Below, piece after piece: positions 18,947-38,840 of a stretch of DNA of 42,218 nucleotides. The notes below the pieces were generated by a model, which saw only the letters and a program-made list of their open reading frames with translations, was not told where the DNA came from and did no database searches. The DNA comes from Colwellia sp. (lineage in GTDB: Bacteria; Pseudomonadota; Gammaproteobacteria; Enterobacterales; Alteromonadaceae). Positions within the stretch are counted from its first letter, which is position 1; each line of letters starts with the position of its first letter. Location of the stretch: assembly GCA_013215655.1 (NCBI GenBank), contig JABSOX010000018.1, forward strand, positions 66,832 to 109,049, read 5' to 3'. Made by a program: the position numbers and the translations under genes.

Positions 18947-19030
18947 ATGTTCAGGATGAACGGTATGTCACAATCACATGGATGTGAAGGAGTGACGATG
19001 TTCAGGATGAACGGTATGTCACATTCATGT
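18947..19030 (+). repeat. Short-form repeat, 51-bp unit, 1.6 tandem copies
   Basis: A 51-bp unit at 18947-18997 starts ATGTTCAGGATGAACGGTAT and ends GATGTGAAGGAGTGACG. A second copy starts at 18998, matches for about 30 bp and then breaks off. It abuts the fadD terminator. Related units are at 25309 and 38577, and the same head and tail flank the long forms near 31139, 35549 and 38661. Confidence 0.85.
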
Positions 19031-19054
19031 AAAACCATTTGTAAGTGTTAACTG

Positions 19055-19792
19055 CTATTGCGCGTTAAGGGTTTTACCATTCACATCTTTACTGTCATCA
19101 CTCATTAAATATACGTATAACGGCATAATATCTTCAGCAGTAGCTAACTTCTCTTTATTTTCTGCTGGGAAAGCACTAGCGCGCATTTTTGTACGAGTTG
19201 CCCCTGGATTAATCGCATTGGTTCTTAATTTGCTATTTTCAAATTCGTCAGCAATAACTTGCATCATACCTTCGGTAGCAAACTTAGAAACACTATATGG
19301 ACCCCAATAGGCTTTTCCTTTGTGACCAACACCTGATGATGTAAATATTAAGGAAGCATTATCGGCAAGTTGCAGTGTAGGAATAAGTGCTTGGGCAATT
19401 AAAAATTGCGCATTTACATTTACCTGCATAACCTCGGTCCATATTTGCTCATGAATTTGAGTAAATGGCGTAAGTTCGCCTAACATCGACGCGTTAAGTA
19501 ATACACCATCAAGTTTACCAAATTGAGCGTTAATGGTAGCGCACATATCAATGTAATTTTGTTTGGTTGCACCTTTCATATCTAAAGGGATAATGGCAGG
19601 TTTTAGTGAACCTTGAGCAAGTATTTCATCATATACATCTTCGAGTTTCTTAACCGTTTTTCCTAATAAAATAACAGTAGCACCTAACTTTGCGTAGGTT
19701 AATGCGGCTTGTCGACCAATTCCGTCACCAGCACCGGTGATAAGAATGGTTTTATTTTGTAATGAATCTTCGATTATTTGATAGTTAAACAT
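19055..19792 (-). CDS. yciK: YciK-type short-chain dehydrogenase/reductase
   Basis: A 245-residue classical SDR that closely follows E. coli YciK (252 aa). The NAD(P)-binding motif is TGAGDGIG (about 20-27), with LNAS in place of NNAG (about 99-102). The catalytic residues are Ser in FTSSGVG, then YSVSK (Tyr/Lys) about 13 residues on. The family-specific ATEGMMQVIADEFE and INPGATRTKMRASAFP follow. The physiological substrate of YciK is unknown. It is cytosolic and transcribed alone, divergent from the VolA-like lipase gene. In E. coli yciK sits beside sohB, topA and cysB, all present in this window. Confidence 0.93.
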   Translation of the reverse strand: MFNYQIIEDSLQNKTILITGAGDGIGRQAALTYAKLGATVILLGKTVKKLEDVYDEILAQGSLKPAIIPLDMKGATKQNYIDMCATINAQFGKLDGVLLNASMLGELTPFTQIHEQIWTEVMQVNVNAQFLIAQALIPTLQLADNASLIFTSSGVGHKGKAYWGPYSVSKFATEGMMQVIADEFENSKLRTNAINPGATRTKMRASAFPAENKEKLATAEDIMPLYVYLMSDDSKDVNGKTLNAQ

Positions 19793-19943
19793 ATTAGAGA
19801 TTTAATGATTTTTATATGGCGGTGATTCTACTCTGAGCGAAGGTAACAAACGAGTAAAAAATTGTGTTCTTTAAATAAAATTTGACAAATTTGTTAATAA
19901 ATTAAAAAAGCGCTAGCACAATGACAAATCTTGGGTTAAGTTT

Positions 19944-19960
19944 AACTGGTCGAACAAGTT
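19944..19960. promoter_or_regulatory. FadR-like operator upstream of the VolA-type lipase
   Basis: AACTGGTCGAACAAGTT matches the FadR operator pattern AACTGGTCNGACNNGTT at nearly all defined positions. It lies 92 bp before the lipase ATG and about 50 bp before an AT-rich TTTATATATA segment (20011-20020) that could hold the -10 box. It is between divergent yciK and the lipase gene, so either could be controlled. Confidence 0.65.
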
Positions 19961-20051
19961 GTTTTAAAGCAAAACTGCGCTTAAAAGTTTTGTGGTCATT
20001 TGAAATCAGCTTTATATATAAAAATAAAAGACTAGTCTGTGGGGAGAAATA

Positions 20052-22478
20052 ATGAATAAGCTAGTACTAAGTCTCGCAATTTCCAGTGTTCTTGGTTTAA
20101 GTGCATGTGGTGGCGAATCCATCGAAGATGTACAAAAGAAAGTAATTGAAACCGGTGATGTAATTACGCCAACAGCACGTATAATATTTGATCCATCGAA
20201 TGGGATACTGTCGGCGCCAAACGATTTGTTATTTACAGGTACACTAGATGGTACTCTCAATATTCCTGTGCCAGATCCAACTGATATTGCAAATCCAAAG
20301 GTTGCTTTAAACGGTTTGGATGGTTGGTCTATTTCTCAACCATTTGTTCTTGCCATTGATTTTCCTGCAGGAACAACGTTAGATGCAGGCAGTGTTTTTA
20401 ACTCTTCAGCAGTGCGTATTTTTGAAACAATTATGGGCGGTGATACCAGTGACGCCGACTGTACAGCGGTAACTCGTGGCTCAGCCTGTAAAGTTGTTGG
20501 TGAATTAACTTTTGGTGTCGATTTTATAGCTCAAGCGAAAGGGAATAACGTCGTTGTTGTCCCAATGAAGCCACTAAAAGCTAAAACAAGTTATATTTTA
20601 GCGTTAACAAACACGTTGCAAGATAATAATGGCAAGTCTGTTGCCCCTTCATCAAGCTATGAATTGGTCCGTCAAAATATTGCTGAAAAACCATTGGGTA
20701 ACGAAGCTCAATTAGGTTTGCAAGGTGCAATAAATAGCTATGAAGCTGCTATTGTTGCTGCTGGTGCGGATAGTAATTCAATTATTTATACTATGGCGAT
20801 GACCACACAATCGACAACCGATGTTTTATTTACGGTTAAGTCAATGATGGCTGCAAATGCAGCACAAGGTATTGTTCCAACTATTGGTGTGGCTGATACC
20901 GGTCTAACGGTTGCTGACGCATTGGCAGGCTTAATTCCTCCATCATTAGTGCCTTTATATTCAAGCGCTAATTTAATGCAGGGTTCGATCACCCTACCAT
21001 ATTACTCAGGTGTGCCAACGGCAGAAAATCCAATGGCACCAGTGAATGAAAGATGGGAAGGGCTTTGTGACTCGGGCGCTATGTTAGCTGGTCTTGCCGC
21101 CGCTAACCCTGCAGCAATTCCAGAAGCACCATTGAGTGTCGCTGATGGTACCTGTATGGCAATTTCTCAAGCAGGTGGTTTACCAGCGCCGGGTCTGCGT
21201 GATTTAAGTAGTATTATGCCACTAGATACAGAGCGTAATTTAACGAAATATAGCCCTGTGCCAAAAACAAAAGCTATGATGCCCATTGATGTGCAAATGA
21301 CAACGCCTGATATTAATGTTGCTAATGCCGTACGTGCACAACTAGGGCTACCGGCGCTTGTTGAACCAGAAAATGGTTGGCCTGTCGTTATGCTAGTGCA
21401 TGGTATAACCCGTCAGAAAGAAATTATGTTACCCATTACTGGAATCTTGTCTTTATATGGTATGGCAACGGTTGCTATTGATCACCCGCTTCACGGTAGT
21501 CGTGGCTTTGACCTGAACATGGACGGAATTGATGACATAAACGCAACAACATTGTCTGCTACTCATTATGTTAATTTAGCAAGCATGTTAACAATGCGTG
21601 ATAATACCCGTCAAAGTGCTGCTGATCTTATAGGTTTACGTTTAGGACTGAACTTTTTAGGTGGAGTGGATAGTGATGGGAATCCTATAAAAATTGATTC
21701 TACTAAAGTTCATATGTTAGGACATTCTTTAGGGGCAATTTATGGCATGAATTTTCTAGCCATAACAAATACTCCTCTTAATCCTGCACTAGATGGCATG
21801 TTTAATGTTACGAGTTCTTCTCTTGCTATGCCAGGTTTGATGTTGGCTAATTTTGGTATTGAATCTCCGGCATTTGAGTCTTTAATAAAATCAAATTTAA
21901 CTTATGCTCAATCACCTGACTTTCAAGCATTTGTAGCGGCAATGTACCCATCAGGTCCTTCTGAAGCTGAGCTTAATGGTGCTTATGAAACATTCTATAA
22001 TGATATGTTAAATGATGTTCAGCGCGCTGAAATGGACGCCATATTTTCTGAATTTACTTTTGCTTCACAAACAGTGACGGACTCAGGTGACCCTATTGCT
22101 TATATTGACGTTTTAGCAGCCACTAATACACCAATACATTTAATTGAAGTTATTGGTAATGGTGGTGATAATTTATCAGACCAAACAGTTACCAATACTG
22201 CACCATTTACGCCAATGGGTGGAACTGAACCGATTATTCGATTATTAGGTTTACAAAGTATATCTGCAACAACTCAAGATGCTGAGCAGACTGTTTCTGG
22301 TGTCACTCGATTCTTATATGGTCATCATGGTTCTATTCTTGACCCTAGTGCAAATGACGATTCGCCAGATGCAGAACTAAGTGCGCGTGCTACTCAAGAA
22401 ATGCAAAGCCAGGTGGCAAATTTCTTTGGTAGTATGGGACATGTAATATCAGTGCAAGATGATGTTGTTGTTCAATAA
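20052..22478 (+). CDS. VolA/Pla-1/cef-family surface lipase lipoprotein
   Basis: An 808-residue lipoprotein: MNKLVLSLAISSVLGLSAC gives a lipobox with Cys19. The N-terminal domain, starting RIIFDPSNGILSAPNDLLFTG, is the bacterial virulence-factor lipase N-terminal domain type. The C-terminal half is an alpha/beta hydrolase with VHGITRQKE, DHPLHGSRGF and the nucleophile elbow GHSLG with Ser559. A late His in GHHGSILDP is a good candidate for the catalytic His. In Vibrio, VolA is a surface-exposed lysophospholipase that releases fatty acids for uptake. The FadR-like site and nearby fadD support that role here. GGGGAG lies 7 bases before the ATG. Confidence 0.88.
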   Translation: MNKLVLSLAISSVLGLSACGGESIEDVQKKVIETGDVITPTARIIFDPSNGILSAPNDLLFTGTLDGTLNIPVPDPTDIANPKVALNGLDGWSISQPFVLAIDFPAGTTLDAGSVFNSSAVRIFETIMGGDTSDADCTAVTRGSACKVVGELTFGVDFIAQAKGNNVVVVPMKPLKAKTSYILALTNTLQDNNGKSVAPSSSYELVRQNIAEKPLGNEAQLGLQGAINSYEAAIVAAGADSNSIIYTMAMTTQSTTDVLFTVKSMMAANAAQGIVPTIGVADTGLTVADALAGLIPPSLVPLYSSANLMQGSITLPYYSGVPTAENPMAPVNERWEGLCDSGAMLAGLAAANPAAIPEAPLSVADGTCMAISQAGGLPAPGLRDLSSIMPLDTERNLTKYSPVPKTKAMMPIDVQMTTPDINVANAVRAQLGLPALVEPENGWPVVMLVHGITRQKEIMLPITGILSLYGMATVAIDHPLHGSRGFDLNMDGIDDINATTLSATHYVNLASMLTMRDNTRQSAADLIGLRLGLNFLGGVDSDGNPIKIDSTKVHMLGHSLGAIYGMNFLAITNTPLNPALDGMFNVTSSSLAMPGLMLANFGIESPAFESLIKSNLTYAQSPDFQAFVAAMYPSGPSEAELNGAYETFYNDMLNDVQRAEMDAIFSEFTFASQTVTDSGDPIAYIDVLAATNTPIHLIEVIGNGGDNLSDQTVTNTAPFTPMGGTEPIIRLLGLQSISATTQDAEQTVSGVTRFLYGHHGSILDPSANDDSPDAELSARATQEMQSQVANFFGSMGHVISVQDDVVVQ

Positions 22479-22510
22479 TCTAATTTTATAGAGTACTATT
22501 TAGACTGATA

Positions 22511-22533
22511 AGCCCTCAATTGAGGGCTTTTTT
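22511..22533 (+). terminator. Intrinsic terminator of the lipase gene
   Basis: The 18-bp perfect palindrome AGCCCTCAATTGAGGGCT at 22511-22528 is followed by a run of T. The same 18 bp recurs exactly as the stem of the acylase terminator at 25287. No repeat element follows this one. Confidence 0.85.
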
Positions 22534-22658
22534 ATTATCTAAAAAAATGGATGGCTTCCTGGTCAACCAGAGTTATGTTAAATAGTAATTAAATCAATAG
22601 CTTTAATGCATTTTTAAACTCAATAAAACTATTGGTTTTGTTATTCTATAAGTCAACC

Positions 22659-22675
22659 AACTGGACGGATGACTT
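22659..22675. promoter_or_regulatory. Weak FadR-like site at the acylase start
   Basis: AACTGGACGGATGACTT matches the left half of the FadR pattern well and the right half partly. It ends 3 bp before the GTG start codon, so it overlaps the ribosome-binding region. This is an odd place for an operator. A second palindrome, CTGGTCAACCAG, lies at 22559-22570 with different half-site spacing. Support is moderate at best. Confidence 0.35.
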
Positions 22676-22678
22676 AAA

Positions 22679-25255
22679 GTGAATAATAAAAAAAATAGTT
22701 TATATAGCATGTTGCTAATTGTAGGACTGGCAGCATGTGGTAGTGATGATAAAAATGATACGCCTATTGCTGTAACTCCCCCCCCTGCTATTACACCAGA
22801 AGAACCTACACTTGTTGCCTTTGATCCTGATGGAGTGCTTGATGCAAATATAAAATGGACTTCATATGGGGTTCCTCATATAACAGCCGATAACTTACAG
22901 AGCTTAGGTTTTGGTTCTGGTTATGCTTATGCTCGAGATAATATATGTATCTTAGCGGATCAACTCGTTAAAATTCGCAGTGAACGTTCAAAGTATTTTG
23001 GTCCTGATAAAATAGTAGGATCAGGAGATTCTGCTAATATCATTTCTGACTTTGGTCATCATGCCTTAGGAGTGCTTAGTTCAGCTAAAAAACTTTACCC
23101 TAATGTCTCTGAAAATACTCGCGCTTTATTAGAAGGTTACAGTACTGGCTATAATAAATATTTGACTGATATTGGTATTGATAATTTAGCGCCAGAGTGT
23201 GCAGGTCAGCCTTGGGTTAAAAACATGACAGCTCAAGAATTACTTGCCTATATGTTTGCTACGTCACAAATAGCCAGTGGTGCAAACTTTCTGGATCTAG
23301 CTTTTTTTGCAAACCCAGGAGAAGGTATTGAGTATTTACCTTATGTTGGTGCAAGAGGAGAAACAACAAAGAATCAGCTAGAAGAGAATAAATCAATGGC
23401 TAGCTCTGTTTTGCACAACCTAGAGTTGGTAACTAAGACTTTTGTTAGCCCTGATGATAATTATGGGGATTTGGGCTCAAATGGCTGGGGTATAGGCAAA
23501 GATAAGACGGAAAATGGCAAAGGTATTCTGCTTGCTAATCCACATTTTCCTCATACAGGTAACCTTAGGTTTTGGCAGTCACATAATACTATTCCTGGAG
23601 TAATGGACGTTACTGGTTCTAGCTTGCAGGGAATACCCGGTGTTAACCTGATCGGTTTTAATAAAAACTTAGCTTGGACTCATACCGTTTCGAAATCACG
23701 TCGATTTGTTGTTTATCAGCTATCACTTGTTGATGGTAATCCAAATCAATATTTAGTTGATGGAGAAATTAAGGATATAGATAAACGTACCTACTATGTG
23801 GAAGTGAAAGCGGGTGCCAGTTCTGTTATTTTATCAAAAGATTTCTATTTTAGTCATCAGGGTTTAATGATTGAAACCCCTGCTCATATTTCTAATTTAA
23901 TGGCATGGTCAGATTCTAATGCTTTTACTTTACGTGATGCAGCTGCAGAGAATATTGATTTGGTTGACCAATGGTTAGCGATGAATCTGGCAACTAATCT
24001 CGAAGAATTTCAACAGGCATTTAAGGATTATGATGGTATTCCGTGGGTAAATACTATGTATGCTGATGATCAAGGTAATGCCTTTTATATTGATAAATCT
24101 CGGGTGCTTAATTTGAATGATACAGCGCTTGGTTTAATGCGTACGGATCCTATTTTAGTTGGTACAAGAAAATTGGCAGGTTTTGATATCTTGCCAGGGA
24201 ATACCTCTATTTTTGAGCCGGATGGATTAAATAATTATGAACAAGCACCTAAATTATTACGTGATGATTTTGTGCAAAACTCAAATGATAGCTACTGGGC
24301 AACGAACCCCGCAGAGCCATTATCTGCTTATTCTATTTTATATGGCGATGATTTAGTTTCGTTATCATTAAGAACTCGTATGGGATTACAGTTATTAAGT
24401 GATAGTGCTGGAGAAGATGGGAAGTTTTCTCCTAGCGAAGTAGAGACAGCTTTATTGAGCAATCGTACCTATTTAGGGGAAGCGGTACTTGATGATTTAT
24501 TAATTCAATGTAAGTTGCAGGGTAATACACCTGTTAGTTTAGATAATGGTATTAATGTTGATATTTCAGCTGGTTGTAGTGCTTTAGCAAGTTGGGATGG
24601 AAAAATGAATAAAAACAGTCAATCGGGCCATTTATTTAGAGAATTTGCTTTTAAATTTAGTCAAATAACTCATTTTAGTAGCCCTTTTGACGTGAATTTA
24701 CCCGCAAGTACCCCAAGCAAGTTAGTAGATGATGGTAGTGCTTTAAAAGCATTGGCAATAGCAATAAAAAATGTTGAAGCTTCAGGCTTTGCTTTAGATG
24801 CCATGATGGGCGATATTCAATTTACTGAAAAAACCATGGCAGATGGTAATGCTAGTGGCATTAAGTTTCCGTGGGCGGGTAGTAAACATACAGAAGGTGG
24901 ATTTAACGTATATGGTTCAGCAAAATCCAATGACACTATGTATAAAATTCATCAATATACGCCGATTATAGATGTGGAAACAGGGAAAAGCTTATCATCG
25001 GGATTAACCTCTGAGGGTTATCATATTAACTATGGTTCTAGTTGGATGTTTGTGGTGAATTTTACTGATGAGGGGCCAGTTGCTAATGGCTTATTAACAT
25101 TCTCACAATCATCTAATAGTAGTGAATCGTCTATGCATTTTGATGATCAAAACCGTTATTATTCAGAAAATACTATGCTAAGACCAATATTGTTTAATGA
25201 AACTGATATTTCAAATGATATAAAAGAAGAGATGAATATTAATTCAAATGACTAA
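22679..25255 (+). CDS. Penicillin acylase family Ntn-hydrolase, lipoprotein
   Basis: An 858-residue protein with a lipoprotein signal ending GLAAC (Cys20). It has the layout of penicillin/acyl-homoserine-lactone acylases: an alpha chain (about 50-265), then GSNGWGIG, where autocleavage before Ser267 would create the N-terminal nucleophile of the beta chain. After it come LLANPHFPHTGNLRFWQSH and GVNLIGFNKNLAWTHTVS, typical of the beta chain. It hydrolyses an amide bond, probably of an N-acyl compound. AHL lactones, acyl-peptides and lipoamino acids are all possible. Start is GTG at 22679. It follows the lipase gene but has its own terminator at both ends. Confidence 0.88.
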   Translation: MNNKKNSLYSMLLIVGLAACGSDDKNDTPIAVTPPPAITPEEPTLVAFDPDGVLDANIKWTSYGVPHITADNLQSLGFGSGYAYARDNICILADQLVKIRSERSKYFGPDKIVGSGDSANIISDFGHHALGVLSSAKKLYPNVSENTRALLEGYSTGYNKYLTDIGIDNLAPECAGQPWVKNMTAQELLAYMFATSQIASGANFLDLAFFANPGEGIEYLPYVGARGETTKNQLEENKSMASSVLHNLELVTKTFVSPDDNYGDLGSNGWGIGKDKTENGKGILLANPHFPHTGNLRFWQSHNTIPGVMDVTGSSLQGIPGVNLIGFNKNLAWTHTVSKSRRFVVYQLSLVDGNPNQYLVDGEIKDIDKRTYYVEVKAGASSVILSKDFYFSHQGLMIETPAHISNLMAWSDSNAFTLRDAAAENIDLVDQWLAMNLATNLEEFQQAFKDYDGIPWVNTMYADDQGNAFYIDKSRVLNLNDTALGLMRTDPILVGTRKLAGFDILPGNTSIFEPDGLNNYEQAPKLLRDDFVQNSNDSYWATNPAEPLSAYSILYGDDLVSLSLRTRMGLQLLSDSAGEDGKFSPSEVETALLSNRTYLGEAVLDDLLIQCKLQGNTPVSLDNGINVDISAGCSALASWDGKMNKNSQSGHLFREFAFKFSQITHFSSPFDVNLPASTPSKLVDDGSALKALAIAIKNVEASGFALDAMMGDIQFTEKTMADGNASGIKFPWAGSKHTEGGFNVYGSAKSNDTMYKIHQYTPIIDVETGKSLSSGLTSEGYHINYGSSWMFVVNFTDEGPVANGLLTFSQSSNSSESSMHFDDQNRYYSENTMLRPILFNETDISNDIKEEMNINSND

Positions 25256-25286
25256 AACTAAGTGAAGTATTTGTACATCATTATTT

Positions 25287-25308
25287 AGCCCTCAATTGAG
25301 GGCTTTTT
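25287..25308 (+). terminator. Intrinsic terminator of the acylase gene
   Basis: The stem AGCCCTCAATTGAGGGCT (25287-25304) runs into TTTTT. It is identical over 18 bp to the lipase terminator stem at 22511. A 51-bp repeat unit begins at the next base. Confidence 0.87.
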
Positions 25309-25359
25309 ATGTTCAGGACGAAAGGTATGTGAAGATCACATGGAAGTGAAGGCGTGACG
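25309..25359 (+). repeat. Short-form repeat, single 51-bp unit
   Basis: A unit of exactly 51 bp with the head ATGTTCAGGACGAAAGGTAT and tail GAAGTGAAGGCGTGACG. It directly abuts the T-run of the acylase terminator, as the units after fadD and the ABC permease do after theirs. Confidence 0.82.
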
Positions 25360-25447
25360 AAATATCACTTTATATTTTGGAGTTTGTCCCCATATATAGA
25401 TAAATTATTATTTATATCTATTTGTAAGAGCTTTAGGAGAGAATGAT

Positions 25448-26491
25448 TTGGATTTTTTATATGAGTATGGTTTGTTTTTTGCCAAAGCAATAACCATTGT
25501 ATTAGCCGTTATCGCTATAATTGTTACTATTGCTGCATCAGCTATTAAGCAGAGTCATAAAAAAGGTGAATTGGAAATTACCGACTTATCAGAGCATTTT
25601 GATGATGTTGAACAAGATGTAATTCATCACCTGTTATCTAAAGAACAGCTTAAACAAAAAGAAAAAGATGATAAAAAGCAGGCGAAAGAAAAAGCCAAAG
25701 CGGATAAAAAGTCAGTTAAAGAGGGTGAAGAAGAACAAGAGACTCGCGTTTTTGTTATAGACTTTAATGGCAGTATAGATGCTAAAGAGGTTACGTCACT
25801 ACGAGAAGAGATCAGTGCAATTTTAACCGTTGCTACACCACAAGACGAAGTTTTTGTTCGGTTAGAAAGTGGTGGCGGTATGGTGCATGGCTACGGTTTA
25901 GCATCATCTCAATTAGATCGTATCAGACAACATAATATTCCATTAACGGTATCTGTTGATAAAGTTGCTGCAAGTGGTGGTTATATGATGGCTTGTGTTG
26001 CTAATAAAATTATATCAGCACCTTTTGCTATTGTTGGCTCTATTGGTGTTATTGCGCAAGTTCCTAATTTTCATCGTCTACTTAAAAAGAATAATGTTGA
26101 TTTTGAACAATTTACCGCAGGTGAATTTAAGCGAACAGTGACTATGTTTGGCGAGAATACTGAAAAAGGTCGTGAGAAATTCAATGAAGAACTTGAAGAA
26201 ACTCATCAGCTATTTAAAGGCTTTGTTAGTGAGCACCGACCAAGTCTTGATATTGACAAAGTTGCAACAGGTGAACATTGGTTTGGTATAAAAGCAAAAG
26301 AACTTGGTTTGGTGGATGATATTCAAACCAGCGATGATTATCTGCAAAATGCAAATAAGTCGAATAAGGTTGTTGCGATTAAATATGCAACAAAGAAAAG
26401 TTTGGCTGAAAAATTCTCTAAAGCTGCGTCTTTATCCGTTGAAAGTATGTTCAGTAAAATGTGGCAGAAAAACCGCATTTTTCCTAGTTAA
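25448..26491 (+). CDS. sohB: SohB, membrane-anchored S49-family peptidase
   Basis: A 347-residue protein that tracks E. coli SohB (349 aa) from end to end. One N-terminal membrane helix (about 10-33) is followed by a highly charged Lys/Glu linker (about 65-98) and the S49 domain. The predicted Ser-Lys dyad is Ser176 in KVAASGGYMMAC and Lys228 in GEFKRTVTMFGENT, with the catalytic domain in the periplasm. SohB is a signal-peptide-peptidase-like protease; in E. coli extra copies suppress loss of DegP. The start is TTG at 25448 with AGGAGAG about 6 bases ahead; a nearby ATG is out of frame. It is followed after 19 bp by tpm. Confidence 0.95.
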   Translation: MDFLYEYGLFFAKAITIVLAVIAIIVTIAASAIKQSHKKGELEITDLSEHFDDVEQDVIHHLLSKEQLKQKEKDDKKQAKEKAKADKKSVKEGEEEQETRVFVIDFNGSIDAKEVTSLREEISAILTVATPQDEVFVRLESGGGMVHGYGLASSQLDRIRQHNIPLTVSVDKVAASGGYMMACVANKIISAPFAIVGSIGVIAQVPNFHRLLKKNNVDFEQFTAGEFKRTVTMFGENTEKGREKFNEELEETHQLFKGFVSEHRPSLDIDKVATGEHWFGIKAKELGLVDDIQTSDDYLQNANKSNKVVAIKYATKKSLAEKFSKAASLSVESMFSKMWQKNRIFPS

Positions 26492-26510
26492 ACATAAGGC
26501 TTAGGATGAT

Positions 26511-27167: not shown

Positions 27168-27336
27168 ATATCACCACGTTTTATCTTTTTATTAGCGCTA
27201 AATAATTCATTTTTATTATATTTGTACAATAAATATCTTGTTTTGTTTATTGATGTAATTGTTTGCGTTATTTTTACTATAAAACTTTTAGTTTTCTGTT
27301 AAGTTATCGGTAATTAAAATAATAGAGTTTCTATAA

Positions 27337-28755: not shown

Positions 28756-28791
28756 CGATAATTATTTGGATTAACTATCGAAAATGACATT

Positions 28792-28817
28792 AAAAACCTG
28801 AGAAATCAGGTTTTTTT
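28792..28817 (+). terminator. Intrinsic terminator of the symporter gene
   Basis: AAAAACCTGA (28792-28801) and TCAGGTTTTT (28806-28815) pair around a GAAA loop, and the T-run continues to 28817. No repeat element follows. Confidence 0.88.
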
Positions 28818-28897
28818 CGTAAGTAACTGACCTTTTTTTTAATTATCGGTTAATATAATTAATGTTAATACAAAAAATTTACCAGGGAGATGCTTTT

Positions 28898-31096: not shown

Positions 31097-31110
31097 TGAT
31101 TAAAGTTAAT

Positions 31111-31138
31111 AAAAAGCCGCTCAATTGAGCGGCTTTTT
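31111..31138 (+). terminator. Intrinsic terminator of the Ig-like lipoprotein gene
   Basis: A 28-bp perfect palindrome centred on CTCAATTGAG with GCCG/CGGC and A5/T5 ends. It is strong in the plus direction and, being symmetric, could also work for minus-strand transcription. A repeat element begins at 31139. Confidence 0.88.
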
Positions 31139-31287
31139 ATGTTTAGAATGTAGGAAGATGTTTGCTTACATGGATGTAAGTACTTAGTTTATGTAGGGAA
31201 CTGATAAACTGCACTTCGATAAGAATTTAATACCAATATCTTTTTTGTCGAGCCTCGCTACGCTAGTGTCGACCTACAATAAACCTA
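31139..31287 (+). repeat. Long-form repeat copy
   Basis: It starts with a degenerate head (ATGTTTAGAATGTAGG) right at the terminator T-run. It then follows the copy at 35771-35945 with roughly 80% identity over about 140 bp by eye, including GATGTTTGCYTACATGGATG, GGGAACTGATAA and TTTTGTCGARCCTCRCTACG. The internal hairpin arms TTCGATAA / TTGTCGAG are partly preserved by G-T pairing. Confidence 0.8.
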
Positions 31288-31299
31288 ATGATTCGATAA

Positions 31300-32406
31300 C
31301 TACTTAGCCATTTCATTAAGTAAAAACGCTGAAATTTCTGCTCCTGCGTTTAATGTTTTAGTGCGGCTTTCAATACCTAAACCGGAACTGTCGGTGAATG
31401 GCGCTATTTCCATCATATCAGCCCCTGTAATCGGATAATTATCCGCAAGTGCAGTTAATATTTTCATCGTTTCGGCTAAAAACATGCCATCTGGCTCTGG
31501 TGTGCCTGTTGATGAGGCAATACTTTCATCTAGTGCATCAATATCAAAGCTGACATAAAGTTCATCTATGTTTTCATCTTTTAATTGAGTAAGAATGTTT
31601 TTAATAATTGCATCTACACCTTGTTCTCTAATTTCATGTGCCCAATGTTGTCGTACACCAAAGGTATTTTCCCAATGAGACTTTGGTCGGCCGCTTGAGC
31701 GAATACCTACTTGGATTAAATGATGTTTTTCGTGTAAGTCATCTAAAATATGTGTACACCATGAGCCAAAGCATAAATCGATACCTAAGCGTTCTACTAA
31801 TAAATCGGTATGAGCGTCAAAATGAATAATAGCCGCACGTTTACCTTGTTTCTTTTTCGCTTGCAAATAAGCTTTGGTTAACGGGTAACTTACTGAGTGA
31901 TCACCACCAATACCAAAAATGCCTTTTTCAGGAAACTGTGCATAAAAATCATGTAATACATCTTCAGTAATGGTTAGTGGGCTAACCGCATACGGACTGT
32001 TTTCATCTTGATAAAGGGCTTTTCTGCAATTTGATAACGTTGCTTCATTTAAGTATTTGTCATGTAACAAATGTGGAATTACACGAATATCTCCCATATC
32101 GAAGGCATTAAGATCAGGATATTGTTCTAATAGTGTTGAACGCACAAAAAGAGGCCCCCAATTGGCTCCTCGTAAAATGCCACCGCCACAGTCTGAAGCA
32201 ATACCCAAAATAACCGCCTTAGACGATTCTGAGAGCTTTTCTAGAGAAGATTGCCATATGGTATCAATGTTGTCTGATTGACCATATAAAGCCTTGTGTA
32301 GTTGCTCTTTTCGCTCTTTTGCAGTGTTCACTGTGAACACGCCATTACCCGGTGGACATAAACACTGTGTGAGTTTTGTTTGTAGGTTCGTCCAAGATGT
32401 TGTCAT
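31300..32406 (-). CDS. Ureohydrolase (arginase/agmatinase/formiminoglutamase family)
   Basis: A 368-residue cytosolic enzyme with the full set of binuclear manganese ligands of the family: GGDHS (167-171, His170), DAHTD (197-201, Asp197, His199, Asp201) and SFDIDALD (286-293, Asp288, Asp290). Such enzymes hydrolyse guanidino or formimino groups. At 368 residues it is longer than typical arginase or agmatinase (about 300-320), with about 60 extra residues at the N-terminus, and there is no hut, speA or arc gene nearby to fix the substrate. Formiminoglutamase, agmatinase or guanidinobase activity are all possible. The gene is monocistronic. Confidence 0.85.
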   Translation of the reverse strand: MTTSWTNLQTKLTQCLCPPGNGVFTVNTAKERKEQLHKALYGQSDNIDTIWQSSLEKLSESSKAVILGIASDCGGGILRGANWGPLFVRSTLLEQYPDLNAFDMGDIRVIPHLLHDKYLNEATLSNCRKALYQDENSPYAVSPLTITEDVLHDFYAQFPEKGIFGIGGDHSVSYPLTKAYLQAKKKQGKRAAIIHFDAHTDLLVERLGIDLCFGSWCTHILDDLHEKHHLIQVGIRSSGRPKSHWENTFGVRQHWAHEIREQGVDAIIKNILTQLKDENIDELYVSFDIDALDESIASSTGTPEPDGMFLAETMKILTALADNYPITGADMMEIAPFTDSSGLGIESRTKTLNAGAEISAFLLNEMAK

Positions 32407-32803
32407 ATGAGCTCTCTTAATGATAAGTCAATTATTGCTCTAACGGCATGAATATTGACTAGGTTCTATGTTTTAGGATGCTTGCTGGTTATAAAATTGA
32501 GCGCAGTATAACGTAATTCTATATTTAATTAGCATTCAGCCCTTAAATTCTGTTGAAAAATTTATTATGATGGCGCCAAATTTTAGACCTCTTTATAGCA
32601 AAAACGTCTAAATAAGCATAATTATTAAAAATAAACGCTTGTCAGCTTGCTTATTTGCGGATATATCTAATAGTAATTTTAGATTAACTCAAACTTTACG
32701 AATAATTGTTTTAAAAAATTGCTGCTCGCTTAATTTTAAACCAATTTTTATCAAAAATTTATCTGACAGCAAAATTGTTAGTTCAGTAGGAATGTAAACA
32801 CAT
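32407..32803. other. Intergenic region upstream of topA
   Basis: This 397-bp AT-rich region separates the divergent ureohydrolase and topA genes and must hold both promoters. A TTATGATGGCGCC segment at about 32563-32577 resembles a -10 box with GC-rich discriminator. AGGAATG lies about 10 bases before the topA ATG. TopA promoters are often supercoiling-sensitive, but nothing specific can be read here. No further gene is visible. Confidence 0.45.
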
Positions 32804-35500
32804 ATGGCAAAATCTCTAGTAATTGTCGAATCACCAGCTAAAGCGAAGACAATTAACAAATATCTGGGTAAAGACTTCATTGTAAAATCAAGTGTTGGCC
32901 ATGTTCGTGACTTACCGCACAGTAGTACAGGTAAAAAAGTAGCGGCGAAATCGCCTGCTGAAGTGCGAAAAATGGAACCAGAAGCAAAAGCAAAATATAA
33001 AGCTAAACGAGATAAGCAAGCACTTGTTAATCGTATGGGCATTAACCCTGATAAAGATTGGGAAGCGAATTACCAAATATTAGAAGGTAAAGAAAAAGTT
33101 GTTGCCGAATTAATTAAACTGGCAGGCAATGCCGACACTGTCTATCTCGCAACCGATTTGGATCGCGAGGGAGAGGCAATTGCATGGCACCTAAAAGAAA
33201 TTATTGGTGGCGATGACGATAAATTTAAGCGTGTTGTTTTTAATGAAATAACTGAAAATGCTATTCAACAAGCTTTTGCTACACCAGGTGAATTAAGCAT
33301 GCCCGGTGTTAACGCTCAACAAGCTCGTCGATTTTTAGATCGAGTTGTTGGTTTTATGGTTAGCCCGTTGCTTTGGAAAAAAGTGGCTAGAGGTTTATCT
33401 GCGGGACGTGTGCAATCCGTTGCTGTTAAATTAGTTGTTGATAAAGAACGTGAAATTAAAGCGTTTGATCCAAAAGAATTTTGGGAAATAACTGCCGATA
33501 CCAAAACTTCAACCAATGTAGACTTTACGCTCGATGTCACTCATGAAAATGGTAAAGCATTTAAACCAACCAACGAAACTGATACTAATAAAGCATTAGC
33601 AACAATAAAAAGCTCAACGTTTACCGTTAATAAACGTGATGATAAACCGTCAAAAAGTACCCCGTCGGCACCCTTTATTACTTCAACGTTGCAACAAGCT
33701 GCAAGTACTAAATTAGGTTTTGGTGTTAAACGTACCATGGGTTTAGCACAGCGTTTGTATGAAGCTGGGCATATAACTTATATGCGTACAGATTCAACTA
33801 ACTTAAGTAAAGATGCTGTTGAAATGTGCCGTGGTTATATTCGCGATAGTTTTGGTGAAAACTACTTACCTGAAAAAGCAAAAGTTTATAGTAGTAAATC
33901 AGGTGCCCAAGAGGCGCATGAAGCGATACGTCCTTCTAATGTGAAAATAGAATCTGCGTTTATGGAAGGCATTGATGCTGATGCTAAGAAACTTTATGAT
34001 TTAATTTGGCGTCAGTTTGTTGCTTGTCAAATGACCGCTGCTCGTTATACCGTGAGTACGATTACCGTTGGTGCAGCACACTTTGATTTAAAAGCAAAAG
34101 GTCGTGTAATGCAGTTTGATGGTTGGACAAAAGTTCATCCACAATTATCAAAAGGTGATGATAAACATTTACCAGACTTAGCTGTTGGTGAAGTATTAAC
34201 TTTAGAGCAATTGAATCCATCACAGCACTTTACAAAACCACCAGCACGTTTTGGTGAAGCATCGCTTGTTAAAGAGTTAGAAAAGCGTTCTATTGGTCGA
34301 CCATCAACATATGCATCTATCATTTCTACCATTCAAGATCGTGGTTATGTTCGTTTAGATAAAAAACGTTTTTATGCTGAAAAAATGGGCGAGATTGTCA
34401 CGGATAGTTTATCTGAAAGTTTTAAAGACTTAATGAGTTATGACTTTACTGCCAATATGGAACAAGAGCTTGATGAAGTTGCTGAAGGTAAAGCGAATTG
34501 GAAAGATGTTCTTAATAAGTTTTATAAAAACTTTACTAAACAATTAACTAACGCAAATAAGCCTAACGAAGAAGGTGGAATGCGCAATAACGAGCCAGTG
34601 TTAACGGATATTGATTGTCCTACATGTGCTCGTAAAATGGGTATTAGAACGGCATCCACAGGTGTCTTTATGGGCTGTTCTGGTTATGCCTTACCACCAA
34701 AAGAGCGTTGTACCACGACGATGAATTTAACTGCTGGTGAAGAAGCGGTAAGTGTTTTAGCAGAAGATCAAGAAACTGAAGCATTACGAGCGATGCATCG
34801 TTGCTCTAAATGTAGTACGGCGATGGACAGTTACCTTATTGACGAAACACGTAAGTTACATGTTTGTGGTAATAACCCTGTTTGTGATGGTATTGAAGTT
34901 GAAGTAGGTGAGTTTAAAATTAAAGGTTACGATGGTCCCATTTTGGAATGTGATCGTTGTGAAGCTGAAATGGAACTTAAATCAGGCCGCTTTGGTAAGT
35001 ATTTTGATTGTACTAACAGTGAATGTAAAAATACCCGTAAGTTATTAGCCAGCGGTGAAGCAGCTCCGCCAAAAGAAGATCCTGTGCAATTACCAGAATT
35101 ATCTTGTGAAAAGTCAGATGCTCACTTTGTTTTACGTGACGGTGCTGCAGGGATATTTTTAGCGGCAAGTACGTTTCCACGATCGAGAGAAACTCGAGCC
35201 CCTAAGGTTGAAGAATTACAACGTTTTCGCGATAGAATTTCGAGTAAATTCTATTACTTAGCTGATGCGCCGGCAAAAGATCCTGATGGTAACTTAGCAG
35301 TTATTCGTTATAGCCGTAAAACCAAAGAACAGTATGTCATGACGGAAATTGACGCGGGTGAAGCTAAAGCTAAAGCCACGGGCTGGACGGCTAAGTATAT
35401 TGATGGTAAATGGGTTGAAGAAGCGAAAAAGAAAGCAGTAAAAGCCAAGTCTAAAACTAAGCCAAAAGGGAAAGCAAAACCTAAGGCTAAAGCTGAGTAA
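32804..35500 (+). CDS. topA: DNA topoisomerase I
   Basis: Type IA topoisomerase that relaxes negative supercoils. The 898-residue protein (E. coli 865) opens with the TOPRIM domain, [20 protein letters not shown] and [14 protein letters not shown]. The active-site Tyr326 lies in [10 protein letters not shown]. Three four-Cys zinc motifs follow: CPTC (605-608) with [16 protein letters not shown]...CGNNPVC, and CDRC...CTNSEC. The C-terminal zinc-ribbon-like region ends in a Lys/Ala-rich tail of about 25 residues that E. coli TopA lacks; it would strengthen DNA or RNA polymerase contact, an inference. Terminator at 35522. topA and cysB are neighbours in E. coli as well, but here about 4.9 kb lies between them. 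Confidence 0.98.
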
Positions 35501-35521
35501 TTTAAAACTTTCCATTTGATC

Positions 35522-35548
35522 AAAAAGGCGCTTTAAAGCGCCTTTTTT
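35522..35548 (+). terminator. Intrinsic terminator of topA
   Basis: AAAAAGGCGCTTT (35522-35534) and AAAGCGCCTTTTT (35535-35547) form a near-perfect palindrome followed by T. Repeat sequence starts directly behind it. Confidence 0.88.
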
Positions 35549-35770
35549 CATACAGGATGTGCGGTATGTTATGGTGCCTGGGTTGTAAAAACAACGATGT
35601 TCAGGAAGTACATTCGGTAGTGTCGAGGTCTACCTCGACAAGTCACATCGATTATTTTTTGTCGAACCTCGTTGCACTCGTGTCGACGTACATTAAAGCA
35701 TCATATCTTCACTGCATTAGTTCTTCTATGTACGCCGATGTGAAAGAGTGACGATATACGAAGAATATTA
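35549..35770 (+). repeat. Composite repeat: degenerate short form plus deleted long form
   Basis: After the topA terminator comes a decayed 47-bp short unit (ACAGGATGTGCGGTATG...). A fresh head ATGTTCAGGA at 35597 follows, then at 35616 a long-form unit opening GGTAGTGTCGAGG. This unit lacks about 59 bp of the middle but keeps TTTTTTGTCGAACCTCGTTG and TCGACGTACATTAAAG. Its tail, GATGTGAAAGAGTGACGAT (35738-35756), leads straight into the next long unit at 35771, giving a tandem with a 155-bp step. Confidence 0.78.
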
Positions 35771-35960
35771 GGTAGTGTAGGTCGATGTTTGCCTACATGG
35801 ATGTAGGTACTTAGGTTATGTCGGGAACTGATAACCTGTACTTCGACAAAGAATTCAACACAAATATCTATTTTGTCGAACCTCACTACGTTTGTATACA
35901 ACCTACATTAAAGAACCATGACTTTACTACATTAGTACTTTCCTACATGTCGATGCAGCT
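35771..35960 (+). repeat. Long-form repeat, most complete copy
   Basis: It begins GGTAGTGTAGGTCGATG. Two potential hairpins are visible: TGTAGG (35776-35781) with CCTACA (35792-35797), and the longer TTCGACAAA (35842-35850) with TTTGTCGAA (35872-35880). After CAACCTACATTAAAG the copy continues through CATTAGTACTTTCC and CATGTCGATG before fading at about 35960. No protein-coding frame is convincing. Confidence 0.78.
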
Positions 35961-36183
35961 AAAATCACGGTCACATAGTTGTTCGTTTATTATCGCTAAT
36001 ATTTTGCCTTGCTCCTTATTTACATAGGTATCGACATTTATAGGTTATATCGAGGAATTAATTGTCAGTACTTCAAAAATATCCAATTTTTAATTGTCCA
36101 ATTAAGCTGAATATTGTTTAGCTATTATCGATCTTAAATATTTATGTCTACACAAACTAAGTGTCAGTCTGCTTTATATTTGT

Positions 36184-36201
36184 TAACAATATATATTGTT
36201 A
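36184..36201. promoter_or_regulatory. 18-bp perfect palindrome upstream of the GntR-ABC operon
   Basis: TAACAATATATATTGTTA is a perfect 18-bp palindrome about 200 bp before the regulator start. No T-run follows, so it is not a terminator. A dimeric regulator site is possible, though an AT-rich palindrome can also arise by chance. Confidence 0.4.
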
Positions 36202-36339
36202 CACTTTCAAAAATATGTATCTTCTATATTTGAATAAATAAATTTATATGTAATAATATCAATCAGTTGATAGTTGCTTTTTCATGGTTCTGGTGTTTTT
36301 TACATTAAACGTTGATTGATTTATACGCAAATAAACATT

Positions 36340-36369
36340 GTGTTATGGTGTGCTGGTGGTGTATAACAC
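36340..36369. promoter_or_regulatory. Candidate YtrA-type operator
   Basis: GTGTTAT (36340-36346) is inverted as ATAACAC (36363-36369), and the second half also forms GTGTATAACAC (36359-36369), a GTGT-N3-ACAC motif. It lies 36-65 bp before the chosen start of the GntR gene. YtrA-subfamily regulators commonly autoregulate through inverted repeats of this general kind, so this is the most likely site for the product of the next gene. Confidence 0.45.
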
Positions 36370-36404
36370 TGTTATCGATTTGTTTTACTGCACAGGAAAA
36401 ACTA

Positions 36405-36770
36405 ATGACACCACAATGGGATTCAGAAAAGCCGATATATCTCCAACTGTATCAGCAAGTCATTGCTCGTATTTTGGATGGATATATCAAAGAAGGAGAG
36501 GCTTTACCTTCTGTAAGAAAAGTAGCAGCAGAATATCAGCTTAACCCTATAACTATTTCAAAGGCGTATCAAATGTTGCAGGATGAACAAGTTGTTGAAA
36601 AACAAAGAGGAAAAGGTTTGTTTGTGATGCCAGGCGCACAACAATTGATGTTAGAGCGAGAACGAGGTGTATTTCTTTGTCAACAGTGGCCTGAAATATT
36701 AAAACAAATTACTCGGCTAAAGCTTTCAGCTGAGCAGTTACTATCTACTCCAATGGAGAACAACATATGA
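36405..36770 (+). CDS. GntR-family transcriptional regulator, YtrA subfamily
   Basis: I choose ATG 36405, with AGGAAAA 7 bases ahead, over an upstream TTG at 36312 whose extra 31 residues look non-coding. The 121-residue protein opens PIYLQLYQQVIARILDGYIKEGEALPSVRKVAAEYQLNP, the GntR winged-helix domain (about 8-75), with the wing RGKGLFV. The short C-terminal helix region (about 76-121) lacks a ligand-binding domain, the mark of the YtrA subfamily. These repress the ABC transporter genes they precede. The stop overlaps the ATPase start in ATGA (36767-36770). Confidence 0.9.
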   Translation: MTPQWDSEKPIYLQLYQQVIARILDGYIKEGEALPSVRKVAAEYQLNPITISKAYQMLQDEQVVEKQRGKGLFVMPGAQQLMLERERGVFLCQQWPEILKQITRLKLSAEQLLSTPMENNI

Positions 36771-37624
36771 GTCCATTAATTTCTATTCGCAAACTTAGTA
36801 AGTCTTACGGCACTAAAAATGTTGTTTCAAATGTCGACTTAACAATTAATGCGGGTCAAATTGTTGGTTTAGTGGGTCCAAATGGCGCAGGTAAAACAAC
36901 ATGTTTGCAAGCAATTCTTGGTTTAACTGATTTTGATGGTGATATTGATGTACTTGGTCATCATCCTCGAAAAGATCGGGTCGAAATGCTTAACGATGTC
37001 GCTTATATCGCTGATGTTGCTATTTTACCAAAATGGCTAAAAGTCTCACAAGCATTAACGTATATGCAAGATGTTCATCAAAATTTTGATATAGAAAAAG
37101 CAAAAATGTTTTTACAAAAAACGAATGTCTCATTGAGCGATAAGGTTAAAGTACTATCAAAAGGTATGGTCACGCAACTACATTTGGCGCTGATTTTAGC
37201 TATTGATGCCAAAGTATTGATACTTGATGAACCGACATTAGGATTAGATATTCTGACCCGTCGACAATTTTACAGTCATTTATTAGAAGAATTTTATAGT
37301 GAAGATAAGTGCATCATTATCACTACACATCAAATTGAAGAAATTGAACATATTTTAACGGATGTTGCCTTTATTCAAGAAGGTAAAATTGTTTTATCGG
37401 AAAGTGCAGAGGATATACGTGAACGCTTTAATTTATTGTCGGTAACAAACGAGCATATAGAGCAAGCTAAGGAGCTTAAACCTTTATTTTCAAATAGTAT
37501 GATGGGATTAACTACGATGCTTTTTGATAAGGCAGACACAGATGTATTACAATCACTAGGTAATGTTAGTGTGCCCAGTTTGGCTGATATTTTTGTAGGT
37601 GTGATGACGAAGGAGACATGCTAA
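36767..37624 (+). CDS. ABC transporter ATP-binding protein
   Basis: A 285-residue ATPase with Walker A GPNGAGKTT (37-45), Walker B VLILDEP (150-156) and the switch His in TTHQIEEIE (about 188). The signature motif is LSKGM (130-134) instead of LSGGQ; LSKGM and similar forms are seen in YtrB/EcsA-like exporters. The region after residue 215 is a C-terminal extension. It should energise export of an unknown substrate with the permease encoded next. It overlaps the regulator by 4 bp, and its TAA overlaps the permease ATG (TAATG). Confidence 0.9.
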   Translation: MSPLISIRKLSKSYGTKNVVSNVDLTINAGQIVGLVGPNGAGKTTCLQAILGLTDFDGDIDVLGHHPRKDRVEMLNDVAYIADVAILPKWLKVSQALTYMQDVHQNFDIEKAKMFLQKTNVSLSDKVKVLSKGMVTQLHLALILAIDAKVLILDEPTLGLDILTRRQFYSHLLEEFYSEDKCIIITTHQIEEIEHILTDVAFIQEGKIVLSESAEDIRERFNLLSVTNEHIEQAKELKPLFSNSMMGLTTMLFDKADTDVLQSLGNVSVPSLADIFVGVMTKETC

Positions 37625-38535
37625 TGAATACGTTAACAATGAAAGCATCAATTAGAAAAGAATTATGGGAATTTAAAAATATTTTAACGTGGGTTCCGGT
37701 GTCATTAGCGGTGTTGATTTTTGTTATTCCGGCGTTAAATTTTTTCCTTAATGGTGTTGATACTCATGCATTATTTATACGTTTGGAGCGATTAGTAGAT
37801 TTTCAATATTCACATTCGCCAGAGGTGGAAAAAATATTTTTTATCGGCTTAATATCACTATTTGCACCATTTTTGGTGTTAAGTACCATAGTGCAGCTGT
37901 ATTACTTTCTTACCTGTCTTTATGATGAAAGAAGAGACCAATCCGTGTTGTTTTGGCGCTCATTACCTGTATCAGATAGTTTAACGATAATGAGTAAACT
38001 TGTTACCGGGGCTTTGGTTATTCCAGCAATATTTTTCATGGTCGCAACCTTAGTACTAGTTACCATACTTATTATTGCTTTTATTGCCTGTATTGTTTTT
38101 TATGTTGGCTATGATATTTCTCTATGGGGTATGTGGATTAGTTCAAGCGTGATAAGTGCGGTCTCAATTATTTGGATAACATTATTGCCTCTGGCTGTTT
38201 GGTTTTTACCTTTGTTTGCTTGGTTAATGTTAGCGTCTATGTACGCAAAAAAGGCACCATTCTTATGGGCCGTACTACCAATAGTTGCTCTGATTTTAGT
38301 TGAGGCTTTAGCCGTACATTATTTAGACTTTTCACAACCTTTTATAGGTAAATTTTTGCTAGACTATTTTGTATTCATGCCAGAAAATGTTAGCACCGCT
38401 GACGTTGTTACTGGTATAAACCGCTTTGCTCCATTTCAAGCAATAGCTTCAAAAATTGACTTTAGTACAGCTTTTATATCGGCGATATTATTCTATGCAA
38501 CCTATTGGTTACGCGTGAATAAAAGCGAAAGTTAA
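37624..38535 (+). CDS. ABC-2-type permease
   Basis: I choose ATG 37624 (MNTLTMKASIRKELWEFKN) because the AGGAG box is 8 bases ahead; an ATG two codons earlier is only 2 bases from it. The 303-residue membrane protein has about six hydrophobic segments, starting near residue 22. After the first comes a soluble loop with LYDERRDQSVLFWRSLPVSD, a motif typical of ABC-2 type exporters that work with YtrB-like ATPases. The substrate is unknown; these systems often answer cell-envelope stress or peptide antibiotics. A terminator at 38555 closes the operon. Confidence 0.85.
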   Translation: MNTLTMKASIRKELWEFKNILTWVPVSLAVLIFVIPALNFFLNGVDTHALFIRLERLVDFQYSHSPEVEKIFFIGLISLFAPFLVLSTIVQLYYFLTCLYDERRDQSVLFWRSLPVSDSLTIMSKLVTGALVIPAIFFMVATLVLVTILIIAFIACIVFYVGYDISLWGMWISSSVISAVSIIWITLLPLAVWFLPLFAWLMLASMYAKKAPFLWAVLPIVALILVEALAVHYLDFSQPFIGKFLLDYFVFMPENVSTADVVTGINRFAPFQAIASKIDFSTAFISAILFYATYWLRVNKSES

Positions 38536-38554
38536 GTTTAGCGCTGTAACTATA

Positions 38555-38578
38555 ATAAACCTGCCTATGCAGGTTTAT
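38555..38578 (+). terminator. Terminator of the GntR-ABC operon
   Basis: ATAAACCTGC (38555-38564) pairs fully with GCAGGTTTAT (38569-38578) around loop CTAT. The T-run is short (TTTAT). A repeat element starts inside its last two bases. Confidence 0.75.
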
Positions 38579-38660
38579 GTTCAGGACGAACGGTATGTCG
38601 TGGTGACATGGATGGCAATGAACGACGATGTTCAGGACGAACGGTATGTCGTGGTGCCAT
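38577..38660 (+). repeat. Short-form repeat, 51-bp unit, 1.6 tandem copies
   Basis: A 51-bp unit (38577-38627) starts ATGTTCAGGACGAACGGTAT. A second copy starts at 38628 and matches for about 30 bp before diverging. The arrangement, including the truncated second copy, mirrors that after fadD at 18947. Confidence 0.85.
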
Positions 38661-38840
38661 GGTCGCTCCTAGGTATCTATGTTTGCGTGGCATTAGTGCA
38701 TCCTTGCACGTCGATGGGAAGGAACGATGTGCAAGGACGAATAATCGGTAGTGTAGGTAGAAGTTCACTTCGACAAAGAATTCAACACGAATATTTTTTT
38801 GTCGAACCTCATTGCGCTTGTGTCACCTTCATTGATTATA
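38661..38840 (+). repeat. Long-form repeat with internal deletion
   Basis: The tail part GCATTAGTGCATCC...GTCGATGGGAAGGAACGATG corresponds to 35714-35756. It is followed by a new head and GGTAGTGTAGG at 38748. The middle of the long form is missing, but the hairpin TTCGACAAA (38769-38777) / TTTGTCGAA (38798-38806) is retained exactly. The copy ends in CATTGCGCTTGTGTCACC. Confidence 0.75.

Follow-up and report, generated by a model that had tools for sequence, protein, structure and literature searches.

Why do several gene ends in one stretch of Colwellia DNA run straight from an intrinsic terminator into a copy of the same short repeat? The stretch (here called the window) comprises 42,218 nucleotides (nt) of the Colwellia sp. 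assembly GCA_013215655.1, a 5.56-Mb draft genome (contig JABSOX010000018.1, positions 66,832 to 109,049 of the forward strand). The original prediction, made from the letters of the window, was that five terminators lead into the repeat at the T-run and that the short form of the repeat is 51 bp, and both points are correct. All five junctions are present. The heads, the ends of the repeat that face the terminator, begin at 18947, 25309, 31139, 35548, and 38577, in each case with the first base directly after the T-run; those at 31139 (ATGTTTAGAATG) and 35548 (CATACAGGATGTGCGG) are decayed. The window contains 11 words like ATGTTCAGGA (at most 1 mismatch), whereas 2.56 would be expected, and none of 100 shuffles reached 11. 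The results presented here demonstrate that the 51-nt unit is a structured, dispersed element that lies behind terminators and is present or absent at the same site. By a narrow preference, we read it as a small element of mobile DNA, with a sense RNA that would arise by read-through and be a candidate ligand of the regulator CsrA.

Placement behind intrinsic terminators

The source genome contains 63 matches (37 + 26) to an IUPAC pattern of the repeat with at most 2 mismatches, and 50 BLAST matches to a query of 1.5 units. An array was scored as lying behind a terminator when it came after at least three Ts and a stem with 5 or more pairs, including 3 G-C pairs. Among 30 loci of the source genome, 26 arrays had enough flanking sequence for this rule, and random positions were taken from the same loci. 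The array followed at least three Ts in 23 of the 26 cases (138 of 3,600 random positions) and followed both the Ts and the hairpin in 21 of the 26, compared with 9 of the 3,600 random positions (~0.26%; Fisher p < 1e-40). The predicted nonrandom placement extends beyond the window. Among the matches listed for an exact 23-mer in named genomes, 77 of 108 arrays passed the rule, as did 34 of 12,840 random positions (Fisher p < 1e-40); 27 of the 31 listed failures still end in two or more Ts, and several prove to be terminators whose loops exceed the rule. The same orientation relative to the upstream gene had also been predicted, and the head pointed towards the T-run at the terminators that were read. 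When an upstream gene was called, 119 of 125 arrays were on the strand of that gene and 6 were opposite; a further 26 arrays had no gene call, and 8 were within open frames. The unit also occurs inside genes, in both orientations, and terminators are its main target but not its sole one. It is located directly 3' of a T, which in most cases belongs to the T-run of an intrinsic terminator.

The window is locally rich in units. At the same threshold, a clear head followed 3 of 14 gene-end terminators in the window versus 1 of 74 in 395,550 bp of other contigs of the source genome, and a covariance model trained on heads alone (model R1) found three units in that sample. The genome as a whole has far fewer copies per terminator. 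Relatives found by the 51-nt repeat were mostly Colwellia records, and the matches listed for the exact 23-mer came from scattered genera, including Marinobacter, Amphritea, Reinekea, and Shewanella. Searches of plasmid and phage collections with the repeat at E 0.01 gave no match in either.

Two covarying hairpins with conserved loops

The unit is approximately ATGTTCAGGAYGAACGGT followed by ATGTCRYGRTNNCATGGATGNNAARGARYGACG and forms two hairpins, the fold being ..(((((...))))).....(((((..(((((....)))))....))))). in dot-bracket notation. In 40 diverse units, 93.7% of the stem cells paired, and 102 cells showed double changes against a shuffled mean of 26.7 (0 of 500 shuffles reached 102), with a covariation score of 0.468 versus 0.150. 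Sliding the partner columns by 1 to 3 lowered pairing to 20 to 43%. In 85 units, double changes were counted in 181 cells, and the shuffles reached at most 80. G-T outnumbered A-C by 47 to 18 (p = 0.0004) in 14 stem pairs of the 85 units, a comparison in which related copies are not independent and from which the triloop-closing pair 7-11 was left out, as were nine units with an insert (module B, described below) in a loop; the same nine were excluded from the per-pair table. This excess suggests that folding takes place on the upstream gene's strand. The unit contains an open 17-codon frame; the covariation and the in-gene copies on both strands speak against a coding role for it. Miniature inverted-repeat transposable elements (MITEs) have the terminal inverted repeats of a known transposase; in the alignment, the ends of the unit do not look inverted by eye.

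The loop of hairpin 2 was tallied in units chosen only by two neighboring hairpin-1 sequences (89 distinct regions, comprising the 81 of standard length that were tallied and 8 one base longer that were not). It read A-N-GGA in 80 of 81 units, N being T in 73, G in 4, C in 3, and A in 1, and the loop core was near 0 bits, whereas variable stem positions reached up to 1.5 bits. The hairpin 1 loop is CAGGANG, a sequence that was itself selected on in most counts, and the two GGA loops of a unit are 26 nt apart. These patterns strongly suggest that the loops have been kept as CsrA/RsmA-type GGA loops on the sense strand while much of the stems changes by compensation. Published work on CsrA ligands describes CAGGA(U/A/C)G repeats in CsrB loops, a consensus from systematic evolution of ligands by exponential enrichment, RUACARGGAUGU, in which AC and GU close a six-base loop, and a single CsrA dimer that bridges sites 10 to 63 nt apart, best above 18 (PMC7652899); ANGGAN hexaloops are also among the reported ligands (PMC7652899, PMC3856055). 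The unit form UCAC[AUGGAU]GUGA and the 26-nt spacing fit these descriptions.

Insertion and persistence at orthologous sites

Filled and empty versions of the same site were found within one gene common to a Paraglaciecola metagenome-assembled genome (locus L076), Reinekea forsetii (L086), and an uncultured Marinomonas (L135), with 85 to 93% DNA identity over the longer matches. A site that reads ..GCTTTT, unit, ACRCGC is filled in the Reinekea and Marinomonas loci and empty in Paraglaciecola; another, ..CTGCACT, is filled in Paraglaciecola and Reinekea and empty in Marinomonas. The inserts are ~51 bp, with ends uncertain by one base, and the target site duplication that marks a MITE was found at neither of these two clean sites. 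The two inserts keep the reading frame and lie in opposite orientation. Inverted and antisense in-gene copies imply that insertion does not need transcription of the target in that direction and that the target is DNA. In-frame calls for four other loci (L064, L080, L103, and L111) are uncertain. An in-gene match in L088 was dropped as what we take to be a native BioB stretch, and L111 versus L123 was dropped as an empty site, the match being weak, with 53 bases inside a repeated cassette. In L051 and L067 the unit lies inside what looks like a gene for an IS91-type transposase, which might carry it from one species to another.

The fadD terminator is filled in the source genome, and of 29 relatives only one, from another genus (L148), has a head there (16/18); the 330-bp fadD downstream regions of the other 28 contain no head above 12/18. 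Orthologous terminators in L261, L263, and L269 are empty as well. An alternative is that the unit is an add-on to the terminator, passed down vertically with particular genes as a fail-safe terminator or 3'-end module. Other sites speak for it. The topA terminators of four relatives carry either a different version of the repeat or a remnant, and when 14 sites of genome G003 were compared in three relatives, a head (at least 14/18) was present at 20 of 33 orthologous terminators, a weak head at 2, and none at 11, some of which keep a short ATGTTC-like remnant or a head split by module B. (Of the 20 G003 regions at the start, 2 lacked a head under the rule, and another 4 were set aside.) Occupation of 20 of 33 orthologous terminators means that vertical persistence is large. 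Against the add-on alternative are the empty terminators, the in-gene copies, and the exact 23-mer in scattered genera, and the reciprocal filled and empty sites contradict it as the sole explanation. We consider it very improbable.

The original prediction had proposed a terminator-targeting, nonautonomous element, an idea that would have failed if copies were not enriched at terminators or were always inherited vertically with the gene. Enrichment proved strong, although many sites are common to several species and vertical persistence is large too. Polymorphic presence and precise insertion, with two clean sites, support the proposal, except that terminators are not the only target.

Nested modules and tandem arrays

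The longer copies had been described as a shared head and tail enclosing a body of 90 to 150 bp. Longer copies do exist, but the supposed body consists of nested insertions of modules A, B, and C. Module B is 51 nt, is located in the loop of hairpin 1 or hairpin 2 between GG and ATG, and has a reverse complement that folds into the topology of the unit. In a search of 16 loci of 21 intended, model R1 matched module B at full length on the opposite strand in L115 (5072-5122; 39.3 bits, E 2.9e-9) and again on the opposite strand in L092, L032, L093, L251, L248, and L052 (31.9 to 38.7 bits); a second type of B scored only 9.8 to 15.6 bits. The opposite-strand matches mark module B as an inverted insertion of an element of the same kind. 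A further double hairpin, module A (~49 nt), is inserted between GGT and ATGTC. Judged by eye, module C is a GTAG-type pair of repetitive extragenic palindromic (REP) sequences whose loop often holds an A-like pair of hairpins. Among 34 distinct inserts tallied, 9 were not B-like by eye, and 22 of the 25 B-like ones had GGA loop words on their own strand. GGA was in both loops of 13 A modules, which had been picked by a TTCC word, so that the second GGA loop is no independent test. The module C hairpin that was folded was without a GGA loop.

Tandem arrays reach ~nine units (L209), and orthologous sites differ in the copy number and content of their arrays, a pattern of local tandem amplification and concerted change. 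L200 and L242, for example, differ by exactly three units, a difference that may reflect gain or loss. The unit amplifies locally in tandem, and its loops take up further inverted elements of the same kind. Some arrays in L220, L264, and loci of other relatives are followed by CGTC-type REP-like pairs (CGTCATGCTGAATTTATTTCAG ... CTGAAACAAGTTCAGGATGACG), whose TTCAGGATGACG end resembles the head.

Candidate mechanisms of spread

One possibility is that the unit is a REP- or REPIN-like DNA element that a REP-associated tyrosine transposase (RAYT) of the Y1 HUH type moves in single-stranded form, in which case the hairpins would be transposase sites and the GGA loops incidental. Y1 chemistry, which depends on hairpins and leaves no target duplication, would fit the unit. 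The source genome encodes one Y1 transposase, which is a RAYT (NCBIfam NF047646, 136.4 bits). Its locus (L138; contig C128, 1100 to 2420) has the gene behind rpoS with GTAG REP pairs on both sides, and a head lies ~340 bp upstream of the gene, at the rpoS terminator; modules C, nested in the arrays, are GTAG REPs too. The RAYT gene and its flanking module C look like a REPtron in a Colwellia-like genome.

The distribution of transposase genes is harder to reconcile with such a mechanism. The repeat pattern is carried by 22 of 197 genomes of the order, and Y1_Tnp was found in 9 of 16 genomes with at least 3 pattern matches versus 80 of the 181 others (p = 0.44). Y1_Tnp was not found in the element-bearing genomes G004 (45 matches) and G005 (26 matches), nor in G063, G074, G116, G131, G167, and G213 (G116 and G131 being less complete). 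Heads were sought near 40 Y1 loci, 12 of them from genomes with several heads, and only the locus behind rpoS has one nearby; the head itself is without a GTAG tag. A RAYT as an obligatory mobilizer was rejected on the lack of association and the Y1-free genomes that bear the element, and we regard the RAYT explanation in general as rather unlikely. The reverse transcriptase (RT) family RVT_1 was searched for in 18 element-bearing genomes; 8 contain it, and there were 0 matches in the source genome and none in the 9 others. With these two families searched, neither Y1 nor RT explains the spread of the unit, and a dedicated enzyme of either kind is unneeded in the genomes tested. The absence of intron and RT features from the units, already asserted in the original prediction, is consistent with the 51-nt length, the lack of RVT_1 in the source genome, and an Rfam search of window positions 17000 to 39500, in which all 24 matches were below gathering and none was to a group II or CsrB family.

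Spread might instead be enzyme-free, through replication template switching at terminator hairpins with microhomology in the T-run that would copy the unit from terminator to terminator, in which case quasi-palindrome correction, not selection, would keep the hairpins perfect. A T-run common to donor and target, the local tandem amplification with concerted change, and the lack of a consistent enzyme among the two families tested would all be expected. This mechanism does not readily account for the exact insertion of ~51 nt, its right end defined, at in-gene sites with little T-run, and it leaves the invariant A-N-GGA loop and the bias of G-T over A-C unexplained. We judge it quite improbable.

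Evaluation of the unit as a CsrA ligand

The Rfam CsrB model (RF00018) was searched against 20 whole genomes at E <= 0.001, with at most 45 candidates scored per genome, and matched in 15 of them. The sole CsrB matches of G001, G002, and G003 were head arrays, at five places (E 2.9e-8 to 2.0e-4). No match at this threshold was found in G010 among the up to 45 candidates scored. All 20 genomes encode CsrA, with the G005 match barely above the cutoff. A separate locus of the source genome, L335 (contig C110, ~270 to 605), looks like a true CsrB, with a terminal intrinsic terminator, a sub-threshold score of 33.9 bits, and 20 GGA in 350 bases versus 6.9 in shuffles. Its loops are as in the unit, CAGGANG four times (CAGGATG among them) and ATGGAT five times. 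Descent of the unit from this gene was considered and rejected, there being no sequence relation beyond the loops. Elsewhere, five tandem CsrB matches ~700 bp apart, all above gathering, were seen at G031:C1:4533806-4536939 (L331, L348), and two near-identical tandem CsrB-like stretches in L336 of G118 (~450 to 740 and 950 to 1230).

The explanation that we slightly favor, a mobile DNA element with a sense RNA that could bind CsrA, would work as follows. The hairpin and T-run of a terminator would expose single-stranded DNA as a target, and insertion there would be harmless. Read-through past the terminator would yield RNA with one predicted CsrA-dimer site per unit, so that arrays of up to ~nine units could behave as CsrB-like ligands for CsrA whose production is coupled to transcription of the upstream gene. 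It is conceivable that the units form a dispersed mobile CsrA sponge network, in which read-through of tens of loci would buffer CsrA and inverted stacking would serve the convergent gene, a tentative extension that we think doubtful on balance. Arrays with A or B modules faced a convergent gene in 28 of 41 cases versus 19 of 47 for other arrays (p = 0.011), as expected if RNA of each strand matters.

Several observations weigh against these proposals. The convergent-gene comparison was weak and post hoc, and orthologous arrays in it do not count as independent. Lying beyond the T-run, the unit is present only in read-through RNA, and neither inverted A and B modules nor antisense in-gene copies can show GGA loops in the RNA of the upstream gene. 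Retention of the GGA loops could have a DNA-level reason. Two loop-adjacent stem pairs are nearly invariant as well. Among units picked by hairpin 2 alone, CAGGANG was present in only 22 of 32 upstream regions that pair (74 examined). Stem pair 7-11 opposes the strand bias, with 13 A-C and 0 G-T. The CsrB scores of the arrays, 24.0 to 36.5 bits, are below the Rfam gathering score of 71, and the element-bearing genomes G004, G005, G006, and G167 had no CsrB match among the up to 45 candidates scored in each. The only CsrB match of the source genome is L335 and not an array, and the best R1 score in L335 was 11.2 bits. Many terminator sites are old, as the comparison of G003 orthologs indicates.

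A 3'-untranslated-region module for processing or stabilization, the other possibility raised originally, fits poorly since a unit after the T-run is outside the normally terminated RNA. Two results go beyond the view from the window: the body consists of nested elements of the unit's own kind, and the CsrA motif is present in the conserved loops. If the CsrA reading is correct, it would join small palindromic mobile DNA with the Csr/Rsm RNA regulator, fields separate so far, in a mobile element whose conserved part is the RNA-binding site of a regulator and for which intrinsic terminators are safe harbors. Even without the CsrA part, the unit makes a clean model for studying how a DNA of ~50 nt that lacks an evident enzyme locates T-runs behind hairpins and leaves the target unduplicated. 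No description of the 51-nt repeat, or of a mobile CsrA-site repeat, was among the results listed in searches of the open-licence literature.

Copies of the repeat in the window

The five terminators, located by junction reading, and the units behind them are on the plus strand; module C copies and composites are unstranded. The fadD intrinsic terminator (18918 to 18946; hairpin plus T4) is followed by a 51-nt double-hairpin unit (18947 to 18997; 76.3 bits with R1) and a second, partial unit with hairpin 1 intact and the remainder decayed (18998 to 19050; 33.5 bits). A terminator at 25287 to 25308 precedes a single 51-nt unit (25309 to 25359; 40.0 bits). The terminator at 31111 to 31138 does lead into a head, as predicted, but only ~10 nt of it persist (remnant at 31139 to 31150, head match 12/21); the remainder is module C, a GTAG-type REP pair enclosing an A-like double hairpin (31147 to 31283; repeat families D2, D3, and D5, by eye). 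Behind the topA terminator (35520 to 35547) lie a diverged 51-nt unit (35548 to 35596; R1 match at 35550 to 35596, 18.2 bits) and a composite of a second head, GTAG REPs, and B and C remnants (35597 to 35955, by eye). The terminator of the ABC permease gene (38558 to 38576) is followed by unit 1 (38577 to 38627; 70.1 bits) and unit 2 (38628 to 38729; 52.9 bits across the insert). The latter is split by module B, a relative of the 51-nt unit inverted in the hairpin-2 loop (38663 to 38713, minus strand, by eye), for which there was no separate R1 match. Module C, a decayed GTAG REP, is at 38754 to 38837 (by eye).

A 103-amino-acid open frame at 38567 to 38878 spans the last array; such frames may be annotated as spurious proteins. 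Identical 77-bp stretches at 1 to 77 and 308 to 384 (family D4) resemble a duplicated tRNA gene.

Comparison with known systems

Rickettsia palindromic elements and mitochondrial double-hairpin elements are small hairpins that are found in frame in genes or nested in one another, and we know of no terminator targeting or CsrA-type loops in either. Group IIC introns insert directly behind terminator hairpins in a fixed orientation. They share this placement with the unit, which is 51 nt long and without ribozyme or RT.

REP, BIME, and REPIN sequences with their RAYTs are short intergenic palindromes like the unit, often between convergent genes and sometimes in genes (PMC3733652). The unit differs in its exact post-T-run placement, its GGA loops, and its lack of a GTAG or unpaired CGTC tag and of a consistent RAYT. 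GTAG at the hairpin foot is absent from the 51-nt unit alignment and present in module C, and the repeats that flank the RAYT at L138 are GTAG REPs rather than the unit. CGTC-type REPs have an unpaired CGTC and a single 8- to 9-bp stem, whereas the unit has two hairpins, and in the model 3 of the 4 bases of its terminal GACG are paired.

The RNAs RrA, RrB, and RrF of E. coli are a precedent for a post-terminator, CsrA-binding RNA made by read-through; they are three rRNA-operon copies, with no dispersed mobile repeat and no tandem 51-nt unit (PMC8144298). CsrB, CsrC, RsmY, and RsmZ resemble the unit in their repeated short hairpins with GGA, CAGGANG, and ANGGA loops. The multiple GGA loops typical of the CsrB family are present in the unit (A-N-GGA in 80 of 81), whose best score of 36.5 bits is short of the 71 set for RF00018. 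In contrast to these RNAs, the unit is mobile and scattered over tens of loci behind the terminators of ordinary genes. CsrB genes are free-standing, with their own promoters; the T-run that closes the terminator of the gene in front is where the arrays begin.

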